Part shown: positions 26,657 through 32,124 of the stretch, piece by piece
Numbering within the stretch: position 1 is the stretch's first letter
Layout: each line of letters opens with the position of its first letter
Assembly (NCBI GenBank): GCA_002281485.1
Contig: NCGF01000025.1
Location: forward strand, 1-33,965
Reading direction: 5' to 3'
Length of the DNA stretch: 33,965 nucleotides
Origin: Sphingomonas sp. 28-66-16
GTDB taxonomy: Bacteria; Pseudomonadota; Alphaproteobacteria; Sphingomonadales; Sphingomonadaceae
Notes under the pieces: generated by a model
Told to the model about the DNA's origin: nothing
Database searches by the model: none
Seen by the model: only the letters and a program-made list of their open reading frames with translations
Translations under genes and position numbers: made by a program

Positions 26657-27346
26657 ATGAACGATCCCACCACCATCCGCCGCCTCTATGGCCGCCGCTC
26701 GGGTCACAAACTGCGCATCGGGCAGGCCGGCCTCGTCGAAGACCTGCTGCCCCAAGTCTCGGTCCCCGAAGACGGCCCGCTATCGGCCGCGCAGTTGTTC
26801 GGCGACACGATGCCTGCTGACTGCCCGCTGCATTTCGAGATCGGTTTTGGCGCCGGCGAGCATCTTGCCGCGCAGGCGGCGGCGCATCCGGGCACGGGGT
26901 TCATCGGCTGCGAGCCGTTCCTCAACGGCGTCGTCGGAGCGCTCGGCCATATCCGCGACGGCGCACTCGGCAACGTCCGGCTGCATATGGGCGATGCGCT
27001 GACGGTGCTCGAGCGGCTGCCCGACGCCTCGCTCGAGCGCGTTTACCTGCTCCACCCCGATCCGTGGCGCAAGGCGCGCCACGCCAAGCGGCGGATGATC
27101 AACAATGGCCCGCTCGATCTGATCCACGCCAAGCTCAGGCCCGGCGGCGAATTCCGGCTCGGTACCGATGACCCGACCTATTGCCGCTGGTCGATGATGA
27201 TCATGAACGCGCGGACCGATTTCGCCTGGCAGGCGTCATCCGCCGCAGATTTCCTGATCCGCCCCGACGACTGGCCCGAGACGCGCTATGAACGCAAGGC
27301 GCGGCGCCAGGGGCGCGAGGTGTGGTACTTTACGTACCGGCGCTAA
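26657..27346 (+). CDS. trmB: tRNA (guanine-N7)-methyltransferase
   Basis: The 229-residue SAM-dependent enzyme makes m7G46 in tRNA variable loops. Motif I EIGFGAGEH (61-69) binds SAM; HPDPWRKARHAKRR (133-146) and the later GTDDPTY (169-175) are the TrmB hallmarks. The start MNDPTTIRR was chosen over a GTG 24 nt upstream by comparison with typical N-termini. Its stop overlaps that of the convergent small UVR-motif gene (CTAA). With MiaB and TsaB it adds to the tRNA-modification content of this core region. Confidence 0.95.
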   Translation: MNDPTTIRRLYGRRSGHKLRIGQAGLVEDLLPQVSVPEDGPLSAAQLFGDTMPADCPLHFEIGFGAGEHLAAQAAAHPGTGFIGCEPFLNGVVGALGHIRDGALGNVRLHMGDALTVLERLPDASLERVYLLHPDPWRKARHAKRRMINNGPLDLIHAKLRPGGEFRLGTDDPTYCRWSMMIMNARTDFAWQASSAADFLIRPDDWPETRYERKARRQGREVWYFTYRR

Positions 27347-29416: not shown

Positions 29417-29456
29417 TTGACTGGACTTGCCAGCGCCTGGAACATATGTGGAACAC
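29417..29456 (+). promoter_or_regulatory. LexA-box (SOS) promoter of the rSAM-udgX operon
   Basis: The sequence at 29440-29454 reads GAAC-N7-GAAC, which on the other strand is GTTC-CACATAT-GTTC, a perfect match to the alphaproteobacterial LexA box GTTC-N7-GTTC. A -35-like TTGACT is at 29417-29422, and 17 nt later the -10 region falls inside the box (GAACAT/CATATG, 29440-29448). The box ends 2 nt before the rSAM ATG at 29457. LexA bound here would block RNA polymerase, and the transcript would start at or just before the ATG, implying a very short or absent leader. The motif is seen directly; LexA control is an inference from it. Confidence 0.75.
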
Positions 29457-30701
29457 ATGGCCCAGCTCAGCACGCGTTCGAAACTCGAAATCCTGGCCGA
29501 TGCTGCGAAATATGATGCTTCCTGTTCATCCTCGGGATCGGTCAAGCGCCATTCGCGAGGCGGCAGGGGCATCGGATCGACCGATGGCGGGATGGGCATC
29601 TGCCATGCCTATGCCCCCGATGGTCGCTGCATCAGCCTGCTCAAGATCCTGCTCACCAACAGCTGCATCTTCGATTGCCACTATTGCATCAATCGCAAGA
29701 GCAGCAACGTCCGCCGGGCGCGCTTCACCGCCGACGAAGTCGTCCAGCTGACGCTGTCGTTCTACCGTCGCAACTATATCGAGGGGCTGTTCCTGTCGTC
29801 AGGGATCATCCATTCGTCGAACTACACGATGGAGCAGATCGTCGAAGTGGCGCGGTCGCTGCGCGAGGACCATGATTTTCGAGGCTATATCCATCTGAAG
29901 ACGATTCCCGATGCCGATCCCGCGCTGGTGCATCAGGCCGGGCTGCATGCCGATCGCGTGTCGATCAATGTCGAGCTGCCGACGGTCCAGGGCCTGAAGC
30001 GGCTGGCGCCCGAAAAATCCGAGGCCCGCATCGAAGGCGCGATGGCCGGAATGAAGTCCGCCATCATCGATACAGCGGATGCGAAGAAAAAATACCGCTC
30101 GGCGCCGCGTTTCGCGCCTGCCGGCCAATCGACGCAGATGATCGTTGGTGCCGATGCGGCCACTGATCGTGACATCGTGGTGCGTGCGGCGGGGCTCTAC
30201 GACCGGTTCGGGCTGCGACGGGTCTATTATTCGGCCTTCTCGCCGATTCCAGATGCGAGCGCCGTGCTGCCGCTCCAGCGCCCGCCGCTGATGCGCGAGC
30301 ACCGGCTATACCAGTCGGACTGGCTGATGCGCTTTTACGATTATGCCCCGCACGAGGTCGCCGAGGCGGCGGATGCCAACGGGATGATGCCGCTCGACAT
30401 CGATCCCAAGCTCGCCTGGGCGCTCAAATTTCGCGGGCGCTTCCCGGTCGACGTCAACCGGGCGCCGCGGGAGATGCTGTTGCGGGTGCCTGGGCTGGGC
30501 ACGCGCGCGGTCGACAAGATCATCGCCGCGCGGCGCTGGCGGCAGCTGGCGCTCGCCGATGTCGGGCGGCTGACGGTATCGGTGGCGAAGGTCCGGCCGT
30601 TCCTCGTCGCCAGCGATTGGCGACCCGTCGCGCTGGCCGATGCCGCGAATGTCGACGCGCTGGTGGCGCCCAAACCCCGGCAGATGGAGCTGTTCGCCTA
30701 G
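29457..30701 (+). CDS. Putative DNA modification/repair radical SAM protein
   Basis: The 414-residue protein belongs to the radical SAM family found next to UDG-like genes (TIGR03916 type). The core motif CIFDCHYC gives Cys70, Cys74 and Cys77 for the SAM-binding [4Fe-4S] cluster. Conserved cysteines Cys23, Cys49 and Cys58 precede it and may serve a second site. Residues about 329-385 (FPVDVNRAPREMLLRVPGLG and onward) form a helix-hairpin-helix like that of ComEA or DNA repair enzymes, implying DNA contact. The reaction is unknown. The start MAQLSTRSKLEILADAAKYD fits the family, but the only purine-rich element is a weak GGAA. It overlaps the LexA promoter and is followed after 28 nt by the UdgX fusion. 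Confidence 0.9.
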   Translation: MAQLSTRSKLEILADAAKYDASCSSSGSVKRHSRGGRGIGSTDGGMGICHAYAPDGRCISLLKILLTNSCIFDCHYCINRKSSNVRRARFTADEVVQLTLSFYRRNYIEGLFLSSGIIHSSNYTMEQIVEVARSLREDHDFRGYIHLKTIPDADPALVHQAGLHADRVSINVELPTVQGLKRLAPEKSEARIEGAMAGMKSAIIDTADAKKKYRSAPRFAPAGQSTQMIVGADAATDRDIVVRAAGLYDRFGLRRVYYSAFSPIPDASAVLPLQRPPLMREHRLYQSDWLMRFYDYAPHEVAEAADANGMMPLDIDPKLAWALKFRGRFPVDVNRAPREMLLRVPGLGTRAVDKIIAARRWRQLALADVGRLTVSVAKVRPFLVASDWRPVALADAANVDALVAPKPRQMELFA

Positions 30702-30729
30702 GGGCGACCGGGGGCGAAGGAGCGATATG

Positions 30730-32124
30730 ATGCACATCGTCCGGCTCGATGACGAAGACGATTTCGAGGGCTGGCGCGGCGCCGTTCGGACGTTGATGGC
30801 GCAGGGCGTGCCGCCGGATCAGGTCGTGTGGCAGGTGGGCGACGATGCCGGCGACCTGTTCGGTGATGGGATCACTGCCGGCGATCGGGCCGCCGCCAGC
30901 TTCACGGTGCCTCGCGCCTTCGTCGATCTGGCGCGCAAGGCCGTGCTGCACACCGATCCGGAGCGGTTCGCGCTGCTGCACCGGCTGCTCGTCCGGCTTC
31001 GAGACCAACCCAGGTTGATCGACGATCATGCCGATCCGGCGGTACGCAAGCTCGAGGGGCTCGCCAAACAGGTCCGCCGCGACATTCACAAGATGCGGGC
31101 GTTCGTCCGCTTCCGCGAAATCGAGGATGGCGACGAGGCCCGCTATGTCGCGTGGTTCGAGCCCGAATGCCACATCGTCCGCTACAACGCCGGCTTCTTC
31201 GTCGATCGTTTCGCGTCGATGCGGTGGTCGATCCTCACGCCGGCGTTGTCGATCCACTGGGACGGCACGACGCTCGTCGAAGCGCCGGGGGCATCGAAGG
31301 CCGACGCGCCCGACGGCGATCCGATCGAGGCGCTATGGAAGGGCTATTACGCCGCGATCTTCAATCCTGCGCGGCTCAAGGTCGGCGCGATGCTCAAGGA
31401 AATGCCACGCAAATATTGGAAGAACATGCCCGAAACCGCGCTGGTGCCGGGCCTCATCGCGGGCGCGCAGGCGCGCGAGGCGGCGATGGTCAACGCCGCG
31501 CGCACGCGGACCGGGGGCGATATCGAGGCGGCGTGGGCGGCGCTGCGCGAAGAGGCGATGGGCTGCACACGCTGCCCGCTGCACCGCAATGCGACGCAGA
31601 CCGTGTTCGGCGAAGGGCCGGTCGATGCCGACTTGATGATCGTGGGGGAGCAGCCGGGTGATCAGGAGGATCTCGCCGGCCACCCCTTTGTCGGCCCTGC
31701 GGGGCAGGTCTTCGATCGCGCGCTCGCCCAGGCCGGCATCGAACGGGCGCGCGTCTACGTCACCAATGCGGTCAAGCATTTCAAGTTCGAGCCGCGCGGG
31801 AAGCGACGAATCCACGCCAAGCCCGACGCTGGCGAGATCACCGCCTGTCGGTGGTGGATCGAGCAGGAGCGCGCGTTGATCAAGCCCCGGCTGACGCTGG
31901 CGCTCGGCGCGACGGCGGCACGCGCGTTGCTCGGGCGGCCCGTAACGGTCAGTCGGGAACGCGGGCGGCCGATCGATTTGCCCGGCGATCAGGGGCGCGG
32001 CTGGATTACCGTCCACCCGAGCTATCTGCTTCGCCTGCCCGACGAACGCACGCGAGACACCGAATTTGCGCGCTTCGTCGACGACCTGAAGGCGGCGCAT
32101 CTCGCCTGTCGCGCGTCGGCCTGA
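30730..32124 (+). CDS. udgX: DUF4130-UdgX fusion: covalent-type uracil-DNA glycosylase
   Basis: The 464-residue protein fuses an N-terminal DUF4130 domain (about 1-245; RFREIEDGDEARYVAWFEPE, MPRKYWKNMPE; function unknown) to a UdgX-type UDG (about 265-464). The UDG part shows an Fe-S pair CTRCPL (Cys279, Cys282), the active-site motif GEQPGDQED (306-314), TNAVKHFKFEPRGKRRIH (345-362) and C-terminal HPSYLLRL. KRRIH is the UdgX loop whose histidine (here His362) forms a covalent bond with the deoxyribose after uracil excision. Cys373, and probably His350, complete the cluster site. ATGs at 30727 and 30730 are possible; 30730 is 7 nt from AAGGAG and gives MHIVRLD. It is in one operon with the rSAM gene under a LexA-like box. 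Confidence 0.92.
   Translation: MHIVRLDDEDDFEGWRGAVRTLMAQGVPPDQVVWQVGDDAGDLFGDGITAGDRAAASFTVPRAFVDLARKAVLHTDPERFALLHRLLVRLRDQPRLIDDHADPAVRKLEGLAKQVRRDIHKMRAFVRFREIEDGDEARYVAWFEPECHIVRYNAGFFVDRFASMRWSILTPALSIHWDGTTLVEAPGASKADAPDGDPIEALWKGYYAAIFNPARLKVGAMLKEMPRKYWKNMPETALVPGLIAGAQAREAAMVNAARTRTGGDIEAAWAALREEAMGCTRCPLHRNATQTVFGEGPVDADLMIVGEQPGDQEDLAGHPFVGPAGQVFDRALAQAGIERARVYVTNAVKHFKFEPRGKRRIHAKPDAGEITACRWWIEQERALIKPRLTLALGATAARALLGRPVTVSRERGRPIDLPGDQGRGWITVHPSYLLRLPDERTRDTEFARFVDDLKAAHLACRASA

Follow-up and report, generated by a model that had tools for sequence, protein, structure and literature searches.

Locus and gene content

The stretch of DNA analysed here (the window) covers 33,965 nucleotides of the genome of Sphingomonas sp. 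28-66-16 (contig NCGF01000025.1), a member of the family Sphingomonadaceae in the class Alphaproteobacteria and the phylum Pseudomonadota. It contains a two-gene operon in which a radical S-adenosylmethionine (SAM) gene is followed by a gene encoding a fusion of DUF4130 with UdgX, a uracil-DNA glycosylase (UDG) family protein, and a LexA box lies at its promoter. The features of the operon and its promoter are as follows.

29422..29427, + strand: predicted -35 element TGGACT (family consensus cTtGaC), from a conserved CTxGxC at -19 to -14 from the box in 55 orthologous promoters and predicted by extension for this genome
29440-29454, + strand as read: LexA box GAACATATGTGGAAC, GAAC-N7-GAAC (GTTC-N7-GTTC on the - strand), from the motif and its conservation
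29445..29450, + strand: predicted -10 element TATGTG (family consensus TATAaa), inside the LexA box and 17 bp from the -35 element, from the promoter footprint
29457, + strand: transcription predicted to begin at the A of the start codon or beside it, giving a leaderless mRNA, from the position of the -10 element
29457-30701, + strand: gene 1, radical SAM protein of TIGR03916 (rSAM_link_UDG), 414 amino acids, from a profile match
30717..30722, + strand: Shine-Dalgarno-like AAGGAG of gene 2, from the sequence
30727..32124 (alternative ATG 30730), + strand: gene 2, DUF4130-UdgX fusion, 465 amino acids, from TIGR03915 and TIGR03914 and from Pfam DUF4130 and UDG

An earlier reading of this DNA, made from its letters alone (the sequence-only reading), had proposed these gene identities, and the profile scores bear them out. 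The product of gene 1 reached 554.8 bits against TIGR03916 (curated cut-off 343.5). In the product of gene 2, the DUF4130 part reached 219.7 bits against TIGR03915 (cut-off 112.25) and 135.6 against the Pfam model (cut-off 27), while the UdgX part reached 319.7 bits against TIGR03914 (cut-off 189.95) and appears to belong to that family by this score and by its intact motif A, R-loop and motif B. The same reading had placed the fusion gene 28 nt downstream, which is correct for the second ATG (30730); counted to the first ATG (30727), the gap is 25 nt.

The radical SAM gene was found above the cut-off in 67 of the 99 genomes sampled from the family (window included) and in 39 of 249 genomes sampled across the phylum. 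Neither protein matched any known anti-phage system among the PADLOC models at E <= 0.001, and we therefore rejected an anti-phage role.

Probable SOS control of the radical SAM gene

The perfect LexA box that the sequence-only reading had noticed was confirmed; GAACATATGTGGAAC ends two bases before the ATG at 29457. It is the only perfect match in the window, where 0.68 matches are expected by chance and at least one occurs in 49 of 100 shuffled windows. In the whole 3.1-Mb genome, GTTC-N7-GTTC was matched 58 times and the reversed control pattern 48 times. Because of these genome counts the box alone is not beyond chance, and a bare match was rejected as evidence; its conservation, in contrast, is beyond chance.

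To score conservation, radical SAM genes were located by phmmer. A perfect box was present just upstream of the gene in 65 of the 67 family genomes (window included), while the reversed motif was found in 1/67 and shuffled sequences gave an average of 0.37 genomes. The box was also present in 78 of 80 named loci of the genome collection, whose organisms overlap in part with the family genomes, in each of the 23 loci from the other alphaproteobacterial families, and in 4/4 further genomes of the same family. The alphaproteobacterial loci scored as misses (L064, L077, L149 and L180, of which L077 and L149 share an identical upstream sequence) have a one-mismatch box at the same position. In 55 aligned promoters, the box was conspicuous against poorly conserved flanks; a -35-like CTtGaC precedes it, and a TATAA -10 element follows 17 bp later within the box. 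Since the start codon lies where transcription should begin in these promoters, a leaderless transcript is predicted.

The surveyed genomes are related, and these counts are thus not independent, so that the operator found in other classes of the phylum provides the stronger argument. The alphaproteobacterial box was absent from 11/11 genomes of other classes with a radical SAM gene above the cut-off. At about the same place, a perfect CTGT-N8-ACAG was found in 8 of these 11 genomes (0.046 genomes in shuffles), and a ninth has CTGTACAAAAAACCAG there; the Caballeronia and Cupriavidus loci add two more with CTGT-N8-ACAG. Genome G303, which has no box and no LexA above the cut-off, serves as a natural negative control. 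When G303 and G322 are set aside, nine genomes remain, whose lexA genes themselves carry perfect CTGT-N8-ACAG in five cases and CTG-N10-CAG in three more; that of G277 has neither within the stretch read. The survey of the gene pair proposed by the sequence-only reading thus found the box to be conserved upstream of orthologues, which strongly supports SOS control of the radical SAM gene; on these sequence patterns, such control is very likely.

About 20 bases before the radical SAM start codon of G322 (L249) lies an inverted repeat, GGTCTCAT-N3-ATGAGACC, which may be a terminator or another operator.

In the genome of the window, 12 of the 58 matches, including the box of the operon, have the ending [AT]TGTTC. 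Further boxes of this subset lie at the start of uvrA and of genes for a Y-family polymerase, an imuA-like protein (57.7 bits, below the cut-off of 150 for its family) and an S24 peptidase. The remaining boxes neighbour genes, such as that for ribosomal protein S2, that either have no known part in the SOS response or match no family. Outside this subset, a perfect box precedes the start of lexA by 31 bases, and the upstream region of recA has one-mismatch boxes only. Three neighbourhoods of LexA-type boxes in this genome were recorded separately. The box at G000:C50, 63956-63970 (L120) lies about 120-195 nt before the ribosomal protein S2 gene, depending on the start chosen. At G000:C41 (box 26811-26825), a DUF5131 gene (L110:1527-2261) starts 12 nt after a perfect box, and its product weakly matches radical SAM mobile pair protein A, possibly making it a second SOS-linked radical SAM-like gene. 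At G000:C48 (box 98140-98154), a gene for a DNA/RNA non-specific endonuclease (Endonuclea_NS_2; L117:1545-2300) starts 30 nt after the box.

Linkage of the partner gene

Where a partner reading frame was found, it lay downstream and on the same strand, which was the case in 173 of 190 loci. Of the 17 loci left without a match by this first search, some were truncated, and L215/L248 was later found to carry a divergent DUF4130; the 12 others with at least 1.4 kb of sequence after the radical SAM gene were examined genome-wide. In these 12 genomes, the 1.4-3.5 kb of sequence read beyond the radical SAM gene yielded no partner, and a TIGR03915 protein above the cut-off was encoded elsewhere in 12/12. 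By coordinates the partner is clearly apart in six of them (G084, G027, G005 and the genomes of L153, L155 and L159), and in the other six it lies about 1.4 to 5 kb downstream, where a long transcript shared with the radical SAM gene may still reach it.

All 12 of these genomes keep the perfect box on the radical SAM gene. We considered that a separated partner might carry a box of its own, and this was not borne out: among the 12 separated partner genes, none had a perfect box within 600 nt and none had a one-mismatch box within 200 nt. The comparison of 12/12 with 0/12 indicates that the partners are retained together and that SOS control tracks the radical SAM gene. Thus, of the SOS-controlled two-gene operon claimed by the sequence-only reading, the SOS box on the radical SAM gene stands, but the operon lacks fixed co-regulation and is not a fixed SOS unit.

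Several neighbourhoods differ in gene order. In the Sphingomonas loci L135 and L139, an extra gene, hemerythrin-like by appearance, lies between the radical SAM and partner genes; in L153, L155, L159 and L160, also from Sphingomonas, the partner is located farther off and has no LexA box. On a plasmid of Azospirillum sp. TSH100 (L277), metK (SAM synthetase) lies just upstream of the operon on the opposite strand and mtnA a few genes downstream, both being genes of SAM supply and recycling.

The radical SAM protein

The following features were located in the radical SAM protein.

29523..29630, + strand: codons of three further near-invariant cysteines, C23, C49 and C58, from an alignment of 44 proteins
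29664..29687, + strand: radical SAM cluster motif CX3CX2C (C70, C74, C77), residues 70-77, from the sequence and alignment
30447..30533, + strand: helix-hairpin-helix HHH_3, residues 331-359, from a profile, with weak ComEA/RuvA matches (E 0.017-0.07)
30681..30695, + strand: C-terminal motif QMELF of the sliding-clamp-binding type, residues 409-413, from the tail survey

Upstream of CX3CX2C, C23, C49 and C58 are invariant in the 44 aligned proteins, and their patterns were matched in 179, 178 and 179 of 180 distinct proteins, respectively; the Gemmatirosa homologue has no equivalents. The obvious inference is that these cysteines would hold a second metal cluster. The C-terminal helix-hairpin-helix named in the sequence-only reading is weak in the window protein itself (19.3 bits, with a gathering cut-off of 27), but it is supported by the relatives, HHH_3 being detected at E <= 0.1 in 44/44 of those aligned.

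The last residues of the protein are QMELFA, and most relatives have QLELF or QLSLF. Peptides of this kind, the QLxLF-type pentapeptide and the QLxLxL-type hexapeptide, are the classic consensus for binding to the sliding clamp. We surveyed distinct complete proteins for the pentapeptide Q[LMIF]xL[FWY] in their last 14 residues and found it in 139 of 146 family members, in 13 of 22 loci from other alphaproteobacterial families and in 6 of 11 from other classes; with the hexapeptide also allowed, the counts were 143/146, 22/22 and 7/11. The seven family members without the pentapeptide have QASLF (three), QGSLF (one) or QMEMF (two) or, in L096, a broken gene. Elsewhere in these proteins, the pentapeptide was absent from all of 66,685 windows of 14 residues. 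In the plasmid-collection loci, a form of the tail was present in the last 22 residues of 8 of 10 proteins, including those from Bacteroidota, Fusobacterium and Acinetobacter. The partner proteins were also considered as carriers of a clamp motif, and this was rejected because the pentapeptide was present in 0/132 of their tails.

In the structure model of the radical SAM protein, the core had a mean predicted local distance difference test score (pLDDT) of 85.9, residues 24-46 were poorly modelled, and residues 408-414 fell below 50, as expected of a flexible tail. A clamp client is characterized by a QLxLF-type peptide in a flexible segment, and the QMELF tail appears to be of this kind. The matches listed by fold searches with the model were to the general radical SAM core, the best being lipoyl synthase and HydE.

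DUF4130 and UdgX

The partner protein contains the following domains and motifs; the definitions of the UdgX motifs are those in the portion of PMC10359453 available to us.

30958..31434, + strand: DUF4130 domain PF13566, residues 78-236, from Pfam
31441..32094, + strand: UdgX domain TIGR03914, residues 239-456, from a profile match
31645..31659, + strand: UdgX motif A, GEQPG, from the sequence and the published definition
31801..31815, + strand: UdgX R-loop KRRIH with the crosslinking histidine, from the sequence, the published definition and a conservation count
32014..32034, + strand: UdgX motif B, HPSYLLR, from the sequence and the published definition

The motif A pattern, taken as the mark of a UdgX fusion, was found in 145 of the 173 loci with a downstream partner. 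Among 140 distinct proteins with this pattern, 132 have GEQPG, and the other eight may be first-match artefacts. The R-loop pattern was matched in 122 of the 140; of the 18 others, 16 keep the histidine in place by eye, and the exceptions are L059, with an asparagine, and L242, which has diverged.

In 11 surveyed genomes, the partner is DUF4130 without UdgX. TIGR03914 was above the cut-off elsewhere in one of them (G130) and in none of the other 10, where G407 and G327 gave weaker UDG-family matches of 114 and 110 bits; in the same search, 5/5 genomes with the fusion exceeded the cut-off. A perfect SOS box was present in 8 of the 10 UdgX-free genomes, being of the alphaproteobacterial type in G407 and G327 and of the CTGT type in G257, G277, G311, G414, G420 and G447; the box is imperfect in G459 and absent in G303. 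An annotated Parabacteroides locus likewise has TIGR03915 alone. Three family loci with a complete partner reading frame but no motif A (L069, L180 and L192) were left out of the DUF4130-only count; L192 and L069 have UdgX motifs in another frame, and no UdgX motifs were found within the locus of L180. The persistence of the pair in UdgX-free genomes suggests that the radical SAM protein and DUF4130 form the core and that UdgX is an addition; judged by gene content, UdgX is optional to the pair. A fold search with DUF4130 gave only weak DHH/RecJ-like matches, which we keep as a lead.

Proposed role and alternative explanations

We consider it probable that the operon encodes a radical SAM enzyme that is induced in the SOS response, is tethered to the sliding clamp and works together with DUF4130, UdgX being an add-on abasic-site trap. 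In this scenario, LexA bound over the -10 element and the start codon would block the predicted leaderless promoter, and its removal by RecA* would allow the enzyme to be made, together with the partner where the genes are linked. The enzyme would bind DNA via its helix-hairpin-helix, and its C-terminal tail would tether it to the sliding clamp of the DNA polymerase; under the predicted tethering, it would work at stalled forks or post-replicative gaps. The radical reaction may be directed at a crosslink or a damaged nucleotide, DUF4130 being a putative DNA-binding partner, and UdgX, which is fused to DUF4130 in most of the alphaproteobacterial loci seen, would trap and shield abasic or uracil sites. 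A fuller version, in which an SOS-induced radical SAM enzyme of DNA repair is recruited to DnaN by its QLxLF tail, C23, C49 and C58 hold a second cluster, DUF4130 is an ancient core partner and UdgX came later, we put forward tentatively, at a little under an even chance.

Besides the boxless separated partners, several observations weigh against this scenario. Across the class, sampled at roughly one genome per family, only 7 of 142 genomes had the gene above the cut-off. G322 is a true exception to the operator pattern, because it has LexA and the operon and yet no recognisable operator: TTAGTAGTAATACTACTAA precedes the lexA gene of this genome, and a site of this kind is missing before its radical SAM gene. 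The Phocaeicola, Acinetobacter, Subdoligranulum, Fusobacterium and Gemmatirosa loci had none of the LexA motifs tried. The tail motif consists of few residues and in its relaxed form is no rarity, occurring in 146 of the 66,685 background windows; it was absent from the last 22 residues in Subdoligranulum and in the distant Gemmatirosa, the latter having QLSLW slightly further in from the C terminus. Finally, the fold matches of the modelled protein are generic, giving no pointer to a DNA substrate and leaving the chemistry unsettled.

The sequence-only reading had seen in the operon a DNA-damage-induced repair system in which the adduct formed when UdgX covalently traps uracil or abasic sites is released or processed by the radical SAM enzyme. 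The SOS control in this proposal holds, and the downstream, same-strand position of the partner (173/190 loci), the frequency of motif A (145/173) and the nearly constant crosslinking histidine loop all agree with an action on the adduct; an SOS-induced radical SAM enzyme meeting a constitutive UdgX would also fit. However, the radical SAM and DUF4130 genes persist in 10 of the 11 DUF4130-only genomes without TIGR03914 above the cut-off, mostly with the perfect SOS box (8/10), as well as in the Parabacteroides locus, and mycobacterial UdgX functions without this radical SAM partner. We have therefore demoted adduct processing as the core function and regard it as quite unlikely. A role in mutagenesis, in which the enzyme would be a clamp client acting with ImuB/DnaE2 or Pol IV to prepare or edit lesions for translesion synthesis instead of repair, shares its regulon and class of clamp motif with ImuB, but the operon and the imuA-like gene are on different contigs of the draft genome; we judge this unlikely, if somewhat less so. 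In a third scenario, the enzyme would modify bases or RNA with the help of an auxiliary Fe-S cluster, inserting sulfur or methylthio groups by a LipA/MiaB-like logic, and would be SOS-induced for another reason. Nevertheless, the cysteine spacing C-X25-C-X8-C differs from the CX4CX5C of LipA, the fold matches are those of the superfamily in general, and the helix-hairpin-helix, the clamp-type tail and the DNA-repair partners point to DNA, making this scenario very improbable.

With a tail of the clamp type, a core that can do without UdgX and separated partners that have no box, the role of the clamp-tethered enzyme that we favour can be tested directly. If the tail binds DnaN, changing two residues could test where and when the enzyme acts, and the hunt for a substrate would narrow to lesions at forks and gaps. 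In addition, an optional UdgX and an SOS control that stays with the radical SAM gene turn attention from uracil repair to the radical SAM enzyme itself, for which our literature searches turned up neither a reaction nor a clamp motif nor any analysis without UdgX. Among the papers listed, a search by gene number gave nothing relevant beyond PMC1839093, and those combining clamp-binding motif, sliding clamp and LexA did not mention radical SAM.

Comparison with known systems

We take COG4277 to be the TIGR03916 radical SAM family and COG1573-COG4277 to be the present gene pair. LexA control of a COG1573-COG4277 two-gene operon has been predicted in Bacteroidetes (2021; PMC8565304), and the available text of that paper cites earlier reports of SOS control of this kind of system in Verrucomicrobia (2016) and Alphaproteobacteria (Caulobacter, 2008). 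Because such control is already in print, the SOS claim is not new, and, given this identity of COG4277, it is not the first physiological handle on the radical SAM partner that the sequence-only reading had expected. The likeness lies in a UDG-family gene and a partner under LexA, whereas the UDG part is here UdgX fused to DUF4130. What is new is the tail of the clamp type, the core lacking UdgX and the absence of a box from separated partner genes; these, as well as the operator swap within Pseudomonadota, were not met in the portion of PMC8565304 available to us.

The UdgX of Mycobacterium smegmatis shares GEQPG, the KRRIH loop and HPSxLLR with the window protein, which differs in its fusion to DUF4130, in the adjoining radical SAM gene and in a Y in motif B where the published consensus, in the part available to us, has S/A. 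The resemblance of DUF4130 to RecJ/Cdc45 of the DHH superfamily is limited to weak fold matches. In LipA, the auxiliary cluster is bound by an N-terminal CX4CX5C; this was not found in the window protein, which has C23-X25-C49-X8-C58. Spore photoproduct lyase (SplB, COG1533) is likewise an SOS-linked radical SAM DNA-repair enzyme in several species, according to the available text of PMC8565304. It was matched neither in the Pfam and NCBIfam tables nor among the 50 matches listed by each fold search, and what sets the window protein apart from it is the clamp-type tail, together with the helix-hairpin-helix and the three additional cysteines. A motif of the QLxLF/QLxLW class is combined with SOS control in ImuB and other beta-clamp clients, the mycobacterial ImuB motif being QLPLWG in the part of PMC10421592 available to us; in the present system, by contrast, the putative client is a radical SAM enzyme, and its motif lies at the extreme C terminus.

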